From Rickettsiales bacterium (GTDB taxonomy: Bacteria; Pseudomonadota; Alphaproteobacteria; Rickettsiales; SXRF01), in contig JAJTHB010000001.1 of the NCBI GenBank assembly GCA_021299465.1, forward strand, positions 1-64,000: a DNA stretch of 64,000 bases, given 5' to 3'. The notes under the pieces were generated by a model, which saw nothing but the letters and a program-made list of their open reading frames with translations, ran no database searches and was not told the DNA's origin. Below, in pieces: positions 22,123-29,772 of the stretch (the stretch's first letter is position 1; each line of letters starts with the position of its first letter). Both the position numbers and the translations under genes were made by a program.

Positions 22123-23356
22123 ATTCCCCCGCCTTGATGATATCAACCTAACCGGCAAGACGGTTCTGGTGCGCGCTGATCTCAATGTGCCGATGCAGGG
22201 CGGCAAAGTCACTGATGATACGCGCATCGTCCGCATCAAACCCACGATTGATTATTTGCTGAAGAAAAAAGCTAAAATTGTTCTGCTTAGTCATTTTGGC
22301 CGGCCAGAGGGCAAATTTGTGCCGGGCATGTCGCTGGCGCCGCTCATTGATTCACTCGCAGCTGTTTATGGTGTTAAGCAGGTAAGGTTCGGCGTAGATT
22401 GCGTGGGACCAGCCGCGCATGAGGCAGTCAAAAAAACCAAAGCAGGCGAAATGGTGCTGCTTGAAAATCTGCGCTTTCATCCCGAAGAAGAAAAAGGCGA
22501 CAAGGCTTTTGCGCGTGACCTTGCGAGCCTCGGCGATGTGTTTGTCAATGATGCGTTTTCCTGCTCGCACCGCGCCCATGCCTCGATCACCGGCATCGCC
22601 GAACATTTGCCCACGGTCGCCGGCCGCCTGATGGAAGAAGAGCTACGGGAACTCTCCGCTATTTTCACGCAGCCTAAAAAACCCATCACTGCGATTGTCG
22701 GCGGCTCTAAAGTTTCCACCAAACTCGACCTGCTGAACAACCTCGCCCGGAAAATGGACAGCATCATCATCGGCGGCGCGATGGCAAATACATTCCTCTA
22801 CGCGCAGGGCTTCAAGGTCGGCGCGTCGCTTCATGAGCCGGAACTGAAAGCTACCGCCCTCAAAATCCTGAAAACCGCAGAGAAATATGGCTGCCGCGTG
22901 CTGCTGCCGAGCGATGTGGTGGTCGCCAAAGCGTTTGAAACGCGCTCGCCCTGTGTGGTGGTGGATGTGGACGCAATACCGGCCGGAGGTATTGCGATTG
23001 ATGTCGGCCCCGCCAGCATTCAGCTCTTTTCAGAAGAGATTGCCCGCTCCAAAACCGTGGTGTGGAACGGCCCGATGGGTGCGTTTGAAATCAGCCCGTT
23101 CGATGCCTCGAGCGTCATGCTTGCGCGCGTGGTCGCCAAGCTCACGCGCCAGAAAAAAATCCGCTCGATTGGCGGCGGCGGCGACACGGTATCGGCACTA
23201 ACGCATTCGGCGCTTTCCGATTTCAGCTATATTTCCACTGCTGGCGGCGCATTTCTAGAATGGCTGGAGGGAAAGAAGCTGCCCGGCGTGGTATCGCTGT
23301 CACGAAACATCAAGAATGAGTCCAATACGAAACTAGTTCGCAAGGATATGTCATGA
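22115..23356 (+). CDS. pgk: phosphoglycerate kinase
   Basis: A 413-residue enzyme making ATP from 1,3-bisphosphoglycerate. Motifs are VLVRADLNVPMQ near residue 17, LLSHFGRPEG near 60, LLENLRFHPEEE, VGGSKVSTKLDLL, NGPMGAFE and GGGDTVSAL. I chose the ATG at 22115, which overlaps the gap stop. An upstream in-frame start would lie deep in gap. It is coupled to gap, and its own stop overlaps the pilin-like gene start. Confidence 0.97.
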   Translation: MAEFPRLDDINLTGKTVLVRADLNVPMQGGKVTDDTRIVRIKPTIDYLLKKKAKIVLLSHFGRPEGKFVPGMSLAPLIDSLAAVYGVKQVRFGVDCVGPAAHEAVKKTKAGEMVLLENLRFHPEEEKGDKAFARDLASLGDVFVNDAFSCSHRAHASITGIAEHLPTVAGRLMEEELRELSAIFTQPKKPITAIVGGSKVSTKLDLLNNLARKMDSIIIGGAMANTFLYAQGFKVGASLHEPELKATALKILKTAEKYGCRVLLPSDVVVAKAFETRSPCVVVDVDAIPAGGIAIDVGPASIQLFSEEIARSKTVVWNGPMGAFEISPFDASSVMLARVVAKLTRQKKIRSIGGGGDTVSALTHSALSDFSYISTAGGAFLEWLEGKKLPGVVSLSRNIKNESNTKLVRKDMS

Positions 23357-24162
23357 TGAATAAACAAGGCTTCACGTTAATTGAGCTATCTATTGTTATC
23401 GTAATTATTGGCTTGATTATTGGCGGTATATTGGTTGGCCGTGATTTGATTCGTGCCGCAGAAATTCGCGCGCAGATTTCTCAGATTGAAGAGTTTAATA
23501 CCGCAGCAAATACCTTTCGCTTGAAATATAACTGCCTGCCTGGCGATTGCCTTAATGCTCAGGAATCCGGCCTCGGTCAGACAGGGGGCCCGGGCGAAAA
23601 TGGCGATGGCAACGGTTCGCTTTTTGAAAGCGTAGATTCGATTCGCACTAAGGAAATGATCAATTTTTGGTATCATCTGGCGCAGGCAGGTTTGATTGCC
23701 GAGAATGCGAAAGGATATACGGATGGTGTGGTGCCTGCAACACCCGGAATTGATACGCCCGCACTGAAATTGACCGGCACCACCATTAAAAATTCAGCAT
23801 CTGCTACCAGCAATCCAAAGGGGGGAGTTCTCGTGATTGCACTAAGCAGAAATGGTGGCCACTCGTGGTATCTGGCATCTGATACATCCTGGACCGGCAT
23901 TCAGACCGTTTATCAGGGACAAACGCTCTATGCGATAGATAGTAAAATTGATGATGGTTATCCAAGATCTGGTAACATGACGTCTTTAGGTAACAGGCTA
24001 AGTGCAGCTTACGACTGGTTTGAGTCAATGGGCTATGCCAGATGCATGGTGCATACGGTCGATCCAATCGAATATAATCTGGCACCACAGTTTCAAAGTT
24101 ATTCGGGTTTCATTGTAGCAACCCAGAACTCTTGTTCAGCGTTAATTCAATCGAATTTCTGA
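23353..24162 (+). CDS. type IV pilin-like protein (prepilin N-terminal methylation motif)
   Basis: A 269-residue protein with the prepilin peptidase site KQG-FTLIELSIV: cleavage after Gly, then N-methyl-Phe and Glu at +5. A 20-residue hydrophobic helix follows. The rest is a pilin-like globular domain with Cys pairs (NCLPGDC and later RCMV...NSC). The start overlaps the pgk stop (ATGATGA). No other pilus gene is in the window. Orphan pilins of this kind are seen in several alphaproteobacterial lineages, but placement in a glycolytic operon is odd. Function unknown. Confidence 0.82.
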   Translation: MMNKQGFTLIELSIVIVIIGLIIGGILVGRDLIRAAEIRAQISQIEEFNTAANTFRLKYNCLPGDCLNAQESGLGQTGGPGENGDGNGSLFESVDSIRTKEMINFWYHLAQAGLIAENAKGYTDGVVPATPGIDTPALKLTGTTIKNSASATSNPKGGVLVIALSRNGGHSWYLASDTSWTGIQTVYQGQTLYAIDSKIDDGYPRSGNMTSLGNRLSAAYDWFESMGYARCMVHTVDPIEYNLAPQFQSYSGFIVATQNSCSALIQSNF

Positions 24163-25233: not shown

Positions 25234-25893
25234 GTGGATAGAAACTGCAGATTATACCTCATCTCCCCGCCCGCCATCGACCTGACGAAATTTTCGGAGT
25301 CGCTGAAGGCGGCGTTTGAAGGCGGGGATATTGGTTGTTTTCAGCTGCGTCTCAAAAATGCCAGCGATGATCAGATTTTGAAGGCAGCGGAGAAGTTATT
25401 ACCGATTTGCCGTGCACATGAAGCGGCATTCATCATGAATGATCGGCCGGATCTGGCGGTGAAATGCGGTGCGGATGGCGTGCATTTAGGCCAGGAAGAT
25501 TTAGAAACCATGCCAGTTCCTAAAGCACGCGAGATCGTCGGCGAGCAATCCATCATCGGTGTTTCCTGCCATGATTCCCGCCACCTTGCGATGGAGGCCG
25601 GTGAAGCGGGCGCGGATTATGTGGCCTTTGGCGCGTTTTACCCCACCAAAAGCAAAGATGCCGCCAAACTGGCGAAATATGGCGTGCCGACTGCAGAAAT
25701 CCTCAGCTGGTGGGCTGAAAATACCGTCTTGCCCTGCGTGGCGATTGGTGGTATGACCCCCAGCAACTCAGTGCCGCTGGTAAGGGCTGGAGCCGATTTC
25801 ATCGCGGTGATCACCGCGGTTTGGGAGCATCCGGATGGGCCAAAACAAGCGGTGGTAGAATTTAATCAGGCGATGGAAAGAAAAGCAGCATGA
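25234..25893 (+). CDS. thiE: thiamine phosphate synthase
   Basis: A 219-residue TIM-barrel enzyme that joins hydroxymethylpyrimidine diphosphate and thiazole phosphate. Conserved parts are QLRLKNAS, FIMNDRPDLAVKCGADGVHLGQEDL, IIGVSCHDS, DYVAFGAFYPTKSK and PCVAIGGMTPSN. The best start is the GTG at 25234. It lies in a run of degenerate GGCAGT repeats and its ribosome binding site is weak. The last codons overlap the efp start. Confidence 0.93.
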   Translation: MDRNCRLYLISPPAIDLTKFSESLKAAFEGGDIGCFQLRLKNASDDQILKAAEKLLPICRAHEAAFIMNDRPDLAVKCGADGVHLGQEDLETMPVPKAREIVGEQSIIGVSCHDSRHLAMEAGEAGADYVAFGAFYPTKSKDAAKLAKYGVPTAEILSWWAENTVLPCVAIGGMTPSNSVPLVRAGADFIAVITAVWEHPDGPKQAVVEFNQAMERKAA

Positions 25894-26459
25894 AAATCGA
25901 TGGCAGCGCAGTGCGCATGGGTATGGTGATTGAATGGCAGGACAAGCTATGGCTGGTAGTGAAGCACGAAATTCGCACGCCAGGCAACCTCCGCTCATTT
26001 AATCAGGTGGAACTCAAAGATATCCGCACTGGCACAAAAAATACCCCGCGCTTTTCTTCGGCGGAAAAAATCGAGCGCGTGTCACTGGATTCAAAGAAGT
26101 GCAACTTCCTCTATGCCGATGGCGATACGCTCACCTTTATGGATAATGAAAATTACGAGCAATTCACCATGAACAAAGACATGCTGGGCGAGCGTGTTAA
26201 ATTCCTGCAGGATGGTATGACCGTCGAGATGGAAACCTACGAAGGCAAGCCGCTTAGCGTTAAACTTCCTTCTAAGGTGAGCCTCAAAATCGTGGAAGCT
26301 GATCCCGTGGTCAAAGGCCAGACCGTTTCTTCTTCCTACAAGCCTGCAATTCTGGAAAACGGTGTGCGTGTTATGGTGCCACCATTTATTCCATCCGGTG
26401 AAACAATCGTGGTTGATACCGATACGCTTGAATATGTTGAGCGTGCGAAGGCTTCGTAA
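25890..26459 (+). CDS. efp: elongation factor P with an atypical modification loop
   Basis: A 189-residue three-domain factor that rescues ribosomes stalled at polyproline. The start overlaps thiE (ATGA). The fold is well kept (LKDIRTGTK, DNENYEQFTMN and the C-terminal RVMVPPFIPSGETIVVDTDTLEYVERA). The tip of the domain I loop reads TPGNLRSF where most EF-P have PGKGxAF. The lysine normally beta-lysylated therefore aligns with Asn, and an Arg lies two residues later. The factor may work unmodified or be modified differently. This is seen by eye and needs an alignment. Confidence 0.93.
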   Translation: MKIDGSAVRMGMVIEWQDKLWLVVKHEIRTPGNLRSFNQVELKDIRTGTKNTPRFSSAEKIERVSLDSKKCNFLYADGDTLTFMDNENYEQFTMNKDMLGERVKFLQDGMTVEMETYEGKPLSVKLPSKVSLKIVEADPVVKGQTVSSSYKPAILENGVRVMVPPFIPSGETIVVDTDTLEYVERAKAS

Positions 26460-26465
26460 CACAAC

Positions 26466-27269
26466 GTGAGCCAATCCCCCCTCATCAATGTTATGTCCGG
26501 CGCAGCCATCAAGGCTGGTAAAGGTTTGCTGCGCGATTTCTCGGAAGTGGATCAGCTGCAGGTCTCTCGCAAAGGCACCGCGAACTTTGTAACCCAGGCC
26601 GATCTAAAAACTGAGAAGCTGCTTCACCGCGAGCTATCCAAAGCACGGCCTGATTTCGGTTTTTTAATGGAAGAAGGCGGCGAGATCGCTGGTAAAAGTG
26701 ATGAGTTTCGTTTCATCATTGATCCGCTGGATGGCACGACTAATTTCATTCACGCCATCCCTTACTTTTGTATTTCGATTGGCGTAGAACAGCGCTACCG
26801 AAATGGCGATACCGAGATCATCGCCGGCGTGATTTATGATCCGATCAATAATGAATTATTCACCGCCGAAAAAAATAAAGGCGCGTTTGTGAACAACCGC
26901 CGCATGCTTGTGTCTGGCCGCGACAAACTGGAAGATGCCATGCTGGTGACTGGCGGCCTTCGCGGCTCAGCCAAAGAGCGCTACAGCCCGTCGCTGCTCA
27001 CCATCATTCAGGAGTGCGGCGCAACTATGCGTGTTTTTGGTGCAACCGCTCTTGATCTTGCTCACCTTGCCGCTGGCCGTATCGATGCCTGCTGGTATTA
27101 CAGCATCAAGCCATGGGATATCGCCGCTGGTATGCTGATGGTCAGCGAGGCGGGCGGCATGGCCACCGATCTTTCCGGCAAACCGGCGAGTCTTATTTCC
27201 AGCGACCTGATCGCCACCAACAAACATTTGGTGATGCCCGTTTCAAAGCTCCTCGTTAAAGCCGCCTAG
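26466..27269 (+). CDS. suhB: inositol monophosphatase family protein
   Basis: A 267-residue Mg-dependent phosphatase. The metal and substrate motifs are MEEGGE near residue 70, DPLDGTTNF near 88 and the C-terminal PWDIAAGMLMVSEAGG. It matches SuhB/IMPase enzymes, which dephosphorylate inositol phosphates and can also act on related sugars. The start is GTG at 26466, 7 bp after efp, with no upstream ATG in frame. A long A/T-rich inverted repeat follows the gene. Confidence 0.92.
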   Translation: MSQSPLINVMSGAAIKAGKGLLRDFSEVDQLQVSRKGTANFVTQADLKTEKLLHRELSKARPDFGFLMEEGGEIAGKSDEFRFIIDPLDGTTNFIHAIPYFCISIGVEQRYRNGDTEIIAGVIYDPINNELFTAEKNKGAFVNNRRMLVSGRDKLEDAMLVTGGLRGSAKERYSPSLLTIIQECGATMRVFGATALDLAHLAAGRIDACWYYSIKPWDIAAGMLMVSEAGGMATDLSGKPASLISSDLIATNKHLVMPVSKLLVKAA

Positions 27270-27340: not shown

Positions 27341-28939
27341 ATGACCAATGCTTCTCGCTTACGTACCACCGTTTCACTGGTTGCTCTATTATCGATGTCG
27401 ATCATCGGCAGCGCTCATGCGCAAACCAGCCAGCCCACAATTGAGCTTAATCTAGATGTTCTGCAAAAGCTGAGCAATCAACCCGCGCCAAAGGCACCCG
27501 TAGTAGCACCTGCAGCCAAGCAAGAAGCCCTGACGACGCCAGCCGCCCCAGCGGCGCAAAAACAAGAAGCGCTTCTGCCTGCAGCCTCGCCAGCTGAAAC
27601 CGAAAATACAGCTGCGCAGAAAACACCAGCACCCGCCGTCACCACTGAGGACGGACAAAAAATGATCTGGGTGAAGGGTCCGGAAGGTAAGCCGCTTACC
27701 CCCGAGCAAGAACGCGCACTTCGTAAACGCCCATCGCAGCAGCCTGGCTATGCCAAACCCAAACCAACGCCGGTGAAAAAAGCTGAGACGAAAAAAGAAG
27801 CGGTGAAGGACGAAATTAAAGAAGAAGTCAAAAAAATTGAAGAAGCCAAGCCTGCTGAACCTTCCAAAGCACCCGCGCCCAAAGCAGAAGAAACCAAAAC
27901 TGAGGATACCAAGGCACCTGCCAAGCCAGCGGAAGCTGCAGTGGTGATCGTGCCTAAGGAAACAACGCCGCCACCAGCGCCTCCCGCTCCACCAGTAGTC
28001 AAAGCTGAAAAGCCAGTGGCTGAAGTTCCGCCTCCACCCGCTAAACCAGCAGAAGCAGCACCGGTGATCGTGCCTAAGGAAACAACGCCGCCACCAGCAC
28101 CTCCTGCTCCACCAGTAGTCAAAGCTGAAAAGCCAGTTGCTGAAGTTCCGCCGCCAGCTCCGCCAGCGCCAGTGGCTGCTGAACCAAAATCCACTGCGGA
28201 AGCGCCGCCAACCCTGCCTCCGGTTGAAAAAGCCAAACCTGTTGAACAGGCCCCACCTCCAGTGCCCCCCGCTGCTAAGGTTGAGGATGCCAAGCCCATT
28301 ATCGATGCTGAACCAATAATCGCTCCGGCAGCACCAGAAACGCCCGCTAAATTGCCAGACCCCGCTTTGGCGCTGCCGAAACCACCCGCACCTCCGGCTA
28401 TGCCAGATGTAAATAAACAAGTGGTTCCACCATCAGCACCAAAACCATCCGAGCCGCTGATAGCTGAACCAGCTGCACCGGAAGAGCCAACGAGTAAAGA
28501 GCCTGCTTTGCCAGTGCCTCCGCCTCCTGCTCCGCCTGCTCTGCCTAAAGTTGATGATGCCAAGCCTAAACCCGCTGATTCAAAACCGGTTGAAGAGCCT
28601 GCAGCGCAAAGCACTGACAAAGCTGATTTGAGTGTCGTTTTCAAACCAACCGAAACATCCGTGCCGCTGACCATGAAAGCGGAGCTTGATAAGATGGCGG
28701 AAAGCATCAAAGCATCCGGTGGTTCCCGTGTGAATCTTGTAGCCTATGCGTCAGGCGCGGAAGATCAGGCGAGCACCGCACGCCGAGTGTCGCTATCGCG
28801 CGCGCTGGCTGTTCGTGCTTATTTGATTGAAAAAGGGGTCGACAAGCTCGCCATCAATGTTCAGGCCGAGGGCAATAAAAACCCGGGCGGCGAAGCAGAT
28901 CGCGTGGATGTGTTTTTGGTGAAGGGGGAAAAGCAGTAG
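27341..28939 (+). CDS. Pro/Ala-rich exported protein with OmpA-like C-terminal domain
   Basis: A 532-residue protein. A signal peptide (about 1-27, ending AHAQ) is followed by about 390 residues very rich in Pro, Ala, Lys and Glu, and then an OmpA/MotB-like domain (about 430-525: ADLSVVFKPTETSVPLTMKAELDKMA, NLVAYASGAEDQ, RRVSLSRALAVRAYLIEKGVD). This suggests a periplasm-spanning stalk that anchors to peptidoglycan. The OmpA domain lacks some usual residues of the binding motif. The middle contains a perfect-length 40-residue tandem duplication. Antisense frames here are compositional artefacts. Confidence 0.82.
   Translation: MTNASRLRTTVSLVALLSMSIIGSAHAQTSQPTIELNLDVLQKLSNQPAPKAPVVAPAAKQEALTTPAAPAAQKQEALLPAASPAETENTAAQKTPAPAVTTEDGQKMIWVKGPEGKPLTPEQERALRKRPSQQPGYAKPKPTPVKKAETKKEAVKDEIKEEVKKIEEAKPAEPSKAPAPKAEETKTEDTKAPAKPAEAAVVIVPKETTPPPAPPAPPVVKAEKPVAEVPPPPAKPAEAAPVIVPKETTPPPAPPAPPVVKAEKPVAEVPPPAPPAPVAAEPKSTAEAPPTLPPVEKAKPVEQAPPPVPPAAKVEDAKPIIDAEPIIAPAAPETPAKLPDPALALPKPPAPPAMPDVNKQVVPPSAPKPSEPLIAEPAAPEEPTSKEPALPVPPPPAPPALPKVDDAKPKPADSKPVEEPAAQSTDKADLSVVFKPTETSVPLTMKAELDKMAESIKASGGSRVNLVAYASGAEDQASTARRVSLSRALAVRAYLIEKGVDKLAINVQAEGNKNPGGEADRVDVFLVKGEKQ
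27921..28152 (+). repeat. two tandem copies of a 120-bp coding repeat
   Basis: Copy 1 (27921-28040) and copy 2 (28041-28152) encode PAEAA-VIVPKETTPPPAPPAPP-VVKAEKPVAEVPPP units of 40 residues. The copies differ at only a few bases, so the duplication looks recent. It lies in the Pro-rich linker of the OmpA-like protein and lengthens the stalk. Confidence 0.85.
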
Positions 28940-29013: not shown

Positions 29014-29772
29014 ATGGCCGGCCATTCCCAATTTAAAAACATCATGCGTCGCAAAGGCGCTCAGGATGCCAAAAAAGCCAAGGTGCTGAACAAGGTCGCG
29101 CGCGAGATCATCTCTGCCTGCAAAACCGGCGCGCCGGATCCTTCCATGAACCCGCGCCTACGCGCTGCCATCCAGTGGGCGCGCGAAGAGAACATGCCGC
29201 GCGATAAAATCGATGCGGCGATTAAACGAGGCAGCGGCCAGACAGACGGTGATAACTTCGAGCCGGTGCGCTATGAGGGCTATGGCCCGGGCGGCACCGC
29301 CATCATCGCGCAGGCGCTCACCGATAACCGCAATCGCACCGCGCCGGAAATGCGCGCCGCCTTCACCAAATATGGCGGTAATCTTGGTGAGACCGGCAGC
29401 GTTAGCTTCATGTTTGACCATGTCGGCGTCATCGTCTTTGCCGGCAGCGTTGCTCCTGAAGAACGTATGTTCGAAGCAGCCACTGAAGCTGGTGCTGAGG
29501 ACTGCGGATTTGAAGACGGCCAGCATATCATCACCGCCGCACCGACACAATTTGGCAGCGTGCAGGCTGCGCTCGAAAAACATTACGGCGCGCCGCTTTC
29601 CGCCAAAATGATCTGGAAACCGAAAAATACCGTCGCCGTGAATGAAGAACAAGCACGCCAACTCCTGAAGCTGATCGAAACGCTGGAAGATAACGATGAT
29701 GTGCAGGAAGTTTTTACCAATGTCTCTGATGACTCGATGATTCGTGTATTCGATGATTCGAGCGCAGCATGA
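29014..29772 (+). CDS. yebC: YebC/PmpR family protein
   Basis: A 252-residue protein with the invariant start MAGHSQFKNIMRRKGAQDAKK, then SMNPRLRAAIQWAREENMPRDKIDAAI and YEGYGPGG. YebC proteins were first described as DNA-binding regulators of ruvC-type genes and quorum sensing. Recent work links them to translation at polyproline stretches. In alphaproteobacteria the gene commonly precedes ruvC, as here with a 4-bp overlap. The palindromic element sits 1 bp upstream, so the ribosome binding site must come from inside it. Confidence 0.95.
   Translation: MAGHSQFKNIMRRKGAQDAKKAKVLNKVAREIISACKTGAPDPSMNPRLRAAIQWAREENMPRDKIDAAIKRGSGQTDGDNFEPVRYEGYGPGGTAIIAQALTDNRNRTAPEMRAAFTKYGGNLGETGSVSFMFDHVGVIVFAGSVAPEERMFEAATEAGAEDCGFEDGQHIITAAPTQFGSVQAALEKHYGAPLSAKMIWKPKNTVAVNEEQARQLLKLIETLEDNDDVQEVFTNVSDDSMIRVFDDSSAA

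Follow-up and report, generated by a model that had tools for sequence, protein, structure and literature searches.

A rare asparagine-tipped elongation factor P in a clade of Alphaproteobacteria that may work without covalent modification

The efp locus

The stretch of DNA analysed in this work (the window) comprises 64,000 nucleotides and represents positions 1 to 64,000 of contig JAJTHB010000001.1 in the Rickettsiales bacterium assembly GCA_021299465.1. The following features are relevant to the analysis:

25234 to 25893, plus strand: thiE, the conserved upstream neighbour of efp (TIGR00693, 179.9 bits against 145.1)
25890 to 26459, plus strand: efp, coding for an asparagine-tipped elongation factor P (EF-P) of 189 amino acids (TIGR00038, single EFP_N match)
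25974 to 26000, plus strand: the beta3-beta4 loop of EF-P, RTPGNLRSF, residues 29 to 37 (from the sequence)
26466 to 27269, plus strand: a gene of the inositol-monophosphatase (IMPase) family (best model NF008027, 182 bits, below the cut-off of 332)
27341 to 28939, plus strand: a proline-rich OmpA-like protein with six PPP runs, a possible EF-P client (OmpA-like C-terminal matches, all below cut-off)
29014 to 29772, plus strand: YebC, a second possible polyproline factor (NF001030, 333.2 bits against 243)

The efp open reading frame is intact, and its product scored 228.4 bits with the curated profile TIGR00038 (cut-off 185.8) and 230.7 bits with NF001810 (cut-off 161), which places it among the EF-Ps; the EfpL/YeiP models did not recognise it (NF003392, 137.8 against 216 bits; TIGR02178, 134 against 264 bits). 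The gene is present in a single copy: the EFP_N family search of the whole 1.95-Mb assembly retrieved the 25890-26459 product and no second EF-P. All three domains are intact, and the AlphaFold2 model, for which 34 sequences from the window and the loci were used, has the three-domain EF-P fold with a mean pLDDT of 88.5; the best 21 matches of this model in a Foldseek search of the PDB were all EF-P or EfpL structures.

The 3' end of thiE and the start of efp share 4 bases. The thiE-efp order is identical in the loci harboring the asparagine-type loop (N-type) and in those harboring the lysine-type loop (K-type), and the IMPase-family gene adjoins efp in most loci of both types. Further upstream, a run of glycolysis genes includes pgk and fba, and positions 23353 to 24162 between these two code for a protein (MMNKQGFTLIELSIVIVIIGLI) that we take to be prepilin-like from its N-terminal motif.

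Asparagine at the tip of the loop

The loop residues are T30-P31-G32-N33-L34-R35-S36-F37, with the Asn codon AAC at 25986-25988 and the Arg codon at 25992-25994. The alignment of PGNLRSF with the PGKGGAF/xPGKGGAF loops of the relatives is ungapped; Asn33 occupies the place of Lys34 of Escherichia coli and Arg35 lies two residues further, so that Asn33, Leu34 and Arg35 correspond to the E. coli positions 34, 35 and 36. The Pro and the Gly ahead of the tip (Pro32 in the E. coli numbering) are retained. The preliminary description had proposed the replacement of Lys34 by Asn with an Arg two positions on, and both the ungapped alignment and the 22 out of 22 distinct EF-Ps with this loop type agree with it. 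The comparison with alphaproteobacterial EF-Ps that it had called for did not need a gap anywhere in the N-type set, which rules out that a different alignment places a Lys or an Arg at the tip.

Residues were counted in an alignment of 115 distinct sequences (22 N-type and 93 K-type), from which the long-branch rows L121 and L128 had been dropped. Position 33 of the window EF-P is Asn in 22/22 N-type sequences and Lys in 93/93 K-type ones. The next position is Leu (21) or Trp (1) in the former and Gly in all 93 of the latter, and position 35 is Arg in 22/22 N-type sequences versus Gly (88) or Pro (5) in the K-type ones. Thr30 and Ile28 likewise distinguish the N-type EF-Ps. According to these counts, the Asn34-Leu35-Arg36 triplet behaves as one unit.

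Over 33 loci, taken from overlapping sets in which some species are counted twice, the Asn codon is AAC in 17 and AAT in 16. The occurrence of the loop in independent assemblies, together with this codon variation, argues for conservation at the protein level and for neither error nor chance. No evidence was found for an error of sequencing or assembly at the Asn codon; this possibility is refuted by the recurrence of the same loop, with synonymous codon changes, in many independent assemblies, and its probability is negligible.

Distribution among relatives

We checked the presence of the loop in 55 genomes of relatives. An EF-P match was found in 47 of them, and the loop could be read in all 47, resulting in 17 PGN, 29 PGK and one QGR. 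The 17 PGN genomes comprise every genome of the same family in which an EF-P was matched (14, one of them through a mere 138-base fragment) plus three others of the order (G023, G031 and G040). Family f9 is mixed, since it includes the Asn-tipped PGNWRAM of G023 (locus L015) and the Lys-tipped PGKGGAY of G044 (L022). The same order also harbors a very divergent EF-P (L128, G017:C7:1446-1961) whose tip, QGRGGS, has an Arg and no Pro32; EarP was not found in this 81%-complete genome.

The best 80 loci of the genome collection, whose titles refer to Rickettsiales, Alphaproteobacteria, Pseudomonadota and Rhodospirillaceae MAGs, were 14 PGN (L032-L045) and 66 PGK. Four further distinct Asn-tipped sequences came from the named MAGs L042-L045, and two genomes from another family of the class also have the Asn-type loop. 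The comparisons cover 22 distinct alphaproteobacterial EF-Ps with this type of loop.

Furthermore, a loose loop pattern matched 134 of 385 genomes of the class, mostly in other genes; 11 of the matches were fetched, two of which were EF-Ps. The tight pattern PGN-x-R-[SA], which is blind to other Asn loops, matched 12 of the 385: five matches were EF-Ps (G000, G005, G031, G172 and G275), six had no similarity to EF-P, and the remaining one was G261 (PGNFSAF). Two of these EF-Ps with an Asn loop, those of G172 and G275, lie outside this order. At the phylum level, the tight pattern matched 6 of 398 genomes, three times in an EF-P (G000, G005 and G031, all from this order) and three times not. 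Outside the Pseudomonadota, two scans of viral contigs did not give any match, and PGNLR loops may occur in Verrucomicrobia. The Asn-loop type is rare and, in the sampled genomes, confined to part of the Alphaproteobacteria.

Origin of the N-type loop

A tree of the 117 distinct EF-Ps, built with the loop columns included and used for its topology, groups all the Asn-tipped rows (22) in a single clade (support 98/96). A second tree was built after removal of the loop columns, with 107 rows (L121, L128 and eight lysine-type rows being left out); in this tree, the two types split at a single branch with a moderate support (92/73), which was recovered in 91% of 200 bootstrap trees. These sequence data favour a single origin of Asn34 and do not prove it.

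The order fba-thiE-efp-IMPase, whole or in part, is common to N-type and K-type loci, including the Lys-type loci of Thalassobaculum and Nisaea. The position of the N-type clade beside Lys-type EF-Ps, in turn, together with the shared locus, suggests that the change arose in place. The replacement of the gene through a distant transfer is disfavoured by the trees and by the gene order shared with K-type alphaproteobacteria.

Known modification enzymes

The preliminary description had called for a search of epmA, epmB and earP, and none of them (KamA/EpmB family included) was found. No protein from the 55 genomes exceeded the cut-off of the EpmA model TIGR00462; its best match in the genome under study has 31 bits, in a frame of 612 amino acids, and the only strong one (G039, 232.7 bits) is an ORF of 499 amino acids, the full size of a LysRS. 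The KamA/EpmB model TIGR00238 did not retrieve any sequence from this genome nor from the 15 other members of the family. Three genomes of the order (G018, G020 and G036; loci L159, L160 and L161) do harbor a KamA/EpmB protein over the cut-off with no EpmA over its own, that is, orphan lysine 2,3-aminomutases. EarP (PF10093) was not found in any of the 55 genomes; a positive control with the same model on 120 genomes from the phylum gave matches in 14, so that the model is able to find EarP. A crude motif scan, run with no positive control, did not reveal EpmA- or KamA-like ORFs in the 66 K-type loci, and none was present among the five ORFs of the K-type locus L080.

The proposal that the window EF-P is either unmodified or differently modified is in agreement with the lack of the modifiable Lys and with the negative searches with these models. 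EpmA is also missing from the lysine-type genomes of the order; thus, its absence alone did not force the appearance of Asn, and it may have removed the reason for keeping Lys.

Polyproline-containing proteins and YebC

A search for ValS in the 55 genomes gave loci from 30 of them; the motif TPPPT[VI]SG is present in 8/8 of the N-type loci and likewise in the other 22 that were read. The retention of PPP in the ValS of N-type genomes implies that polyproline still has to be made. The genome had also been described as encoding very proline-rich proteins at 27341 and 33698; this is overstated, since only the former contains PPP (six runs), the latter having none. The homologues of the OmpA-like protein encoded at 27341 have from zero to six PPP runs among close relatives, and none in the same-genus locus L032; with such variation, this gene does not count as a conserved client.

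Near efp, there are 0.62 PPP per 1000 residues in the 14 N-type loci versus 0.52 in the 66 K-type loci, both values being based on mechanical ORFs with genes unmatched between the two types. The PPP density around efp in these 14 and 66 loci gave no sign of PPP avoidance in N-type genomes. YebC, encoded downstream, is a published polyproline factor that relieves polyproline stalls (PMC12234827).

Comparison with known systems

As a general rule, EF-P depends on a long side chain at the tip of the loop, which is often modified. Asparagine-tipped EF-Ps are already in print: among the 1166 EF-Ps of Volkwein et al. (2019, PMC6544042), 2.23% have Asn at the tip, in each case together with Pro32, and Asn is also listed in PMC11611912. 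The window EF-P shares both Asn34 and Pro32 with that group, and its clade is a well-sampled addition to a known, uncharacterised type. The text of PMC6544042 mentions neither the Asn-Leu-Arg triplet nor this alphaproteobacterial clade, and an overlap is possible in its supplementary tables. The texts of PMC6544042, PMC11611912 and PMC2821294, supplementary tables aside, do not contain a test of a native Asn-tipped EF-P; full-text searches, whose coverage leaves out many subscription papers, did not return any title on one.

The lysine-type EF-P of E. coli, with EpmA and EpmB, has the same fold, three domains, Pro32-Gly33 and a seven-residue loop; the window EF-P differs from it in lacking Lys34, with EpmA and KamA/EpmB not found. 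The arginine-type EF-P of Pseudomonas, with EarP, likewise combines the EF-P fold with a Lys-free tip, but the window protein has Asn rather than Arg at the tip and keeps Pro32, and EarP was not found; thus, none of the three hallmarks of the rhamnosylation type (tip Arg, loss of Pro32, EarP) is present. The 5-aminopentanol type of Bacillus (YmfI) requires a tip Lys, which the window EF-P lacks. The hypusine type of IF5A does not apply either, since there is no tip Lys and the deoxyhypusine synthase (DHS) homologue described below fails TIGR00321. Unmodified actinobacterial EF-Ps (Pinheiro et al. 2020, cited in PMC11611912) reportedly owe their activity to the sequence of the loop itself, the tip still being Lys; activity free of modification, reported there, is proposed here, for a tip with Asn followed by Leu-Arg instead of Lys. 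EfpL (YeiP) works with an unmodified Arg at the tip, which a docking model places stacked between the C bases of the CCA end (PMC11611912). The window EF-P would likewise work with no modified tip and with an Arg in the loop; however, its loop is not extended and the Arg lies two residues past the tip.

How the loop may work

The window encodes a genuine, single-copy representative of the rare Asn-tipped EF-Ps. We consider it probable, with moderate confidence, that in this protein Lys34 was lost in place and the loop works with no covalent modification. The loss would have occurred in a lineage already devoid of beta-lysylation. Arg36, fixed jointly with Asn34, would supply charge and contact, and Leu35 in place of Gly would stiffen the loop; the two co-fixed residues would thus allow the unmodified loop to function. 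The protein would still rescue polyproline stalls, and YebC may assist it. The joint fixation of the three positions (Asn 22/22, Arg 22/22, Leu 21/22) supports this reading at the level of sequence.

In E. coli, the K34N variant has no activity, and the overproduced, unmodified wild type keeps about half of it (text of PMC6544042). Hence, in a loop of the lysine type, Asn would not be expected to suffice by itself and, given that an unmodified Arg suffices in EfpL, Arg36 is proposed as the compensating residue. Some data are at odds with this explanation: K34N shows that a tip Asn can inactivate the factor, the known arginine-tipped cases carry their Arg at the tip and not two residues on, the support of the loop-free tree is moderate, and family f9 includes both types.

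The inactivity of K34N, together with the presence of YebC and its published activity on stalls (PMC12234827), might instead be taken to indicate a degenerate loop in an EF-P that has lost its polyproline activity, YebC or another factor having taken over. We regard this as unlikely: decay would give variation, whereas the loop is fixed across the clade despite synonymous codon changes, the three domains are intact, the EF-P models are passed, and the PPP of ValS is retained.

Alternatively, the loop may be modified after all, on the amide of Asn34 or on Arg36, by an unlinked enzyme not yet tied to EF-P that replaced beta-lysylation in the clade; such a modification would be new for any translation factor. 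Asn and Arg are each invariant (22/22), and the inactivity of the bare E. coli K34N protein (PMC6544042) requires that something compensates. Nevertheless, a compensating residue, Arg36, is already present in the sequence, no candidate enzyme lies beside efp, whose neighbours do not differ from those in the K-type loci, and we regard this scenario as unlikely.

A deoxyhypusine synthase homologue

A DHS homologue is encoded in the same genome, outside the window (C8:85999-86889), and homologues occur in 16/17 relatives with Asn34 versus 5/29 with Lys34. It passes the model of 1,9-bis(guanidino)-5-aza-nonane synthase (NF002699, 593.4 bits against a cut-off of 500) and fails that of DHS (TIGR00321 dhys, 221.7 against 304.25 bits); by family, it is thus predicted to be a polyamine enzyme. 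Both here (L234:9934-12326, on C8) and in G023, the gene adjoins that of an AR-fold decarboxylase. The pair probably represents a homospermidine pathway, and it fits the agmatine-coupling homospermidine route described in Thermus (PMC10981699). In the same locus, minus-strand ORFs at L234:18978-19897 contain tandem repeats rich in VGPVPPV and may be coding.

The skewed distribution of this homologue, along with the DHS-like proteins reported in some genomes with Lys- or Asn-tipped EF-Ps (text of PMC6544042), raises the question of whether it modifies the window EF-P. Given a single origin of Asn34, the 16 positive genomes out of 17 are not independent, and the association is weak. The family assignment and the adjoining decarboxylase speak against such a role; moreover, the L045 genome has a different DHS type, below every cut-off, and none is present in G172, whose genome is 99% complete and which lies on the deepest Asn34 branch. 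DHS modifies Lys, which is missing from the tip. On the whole, we consider this role very improbable.

Implications

The loss of Lys in place, with an unchanged gene order and no EpmA in the relatives searched, would represent a natural experiment on the minimal change that keeps EF-P working. It singles out residues 35 and 36 for transfer into the E. coli EF-P; in this way, the purpose of the modification would become testable.
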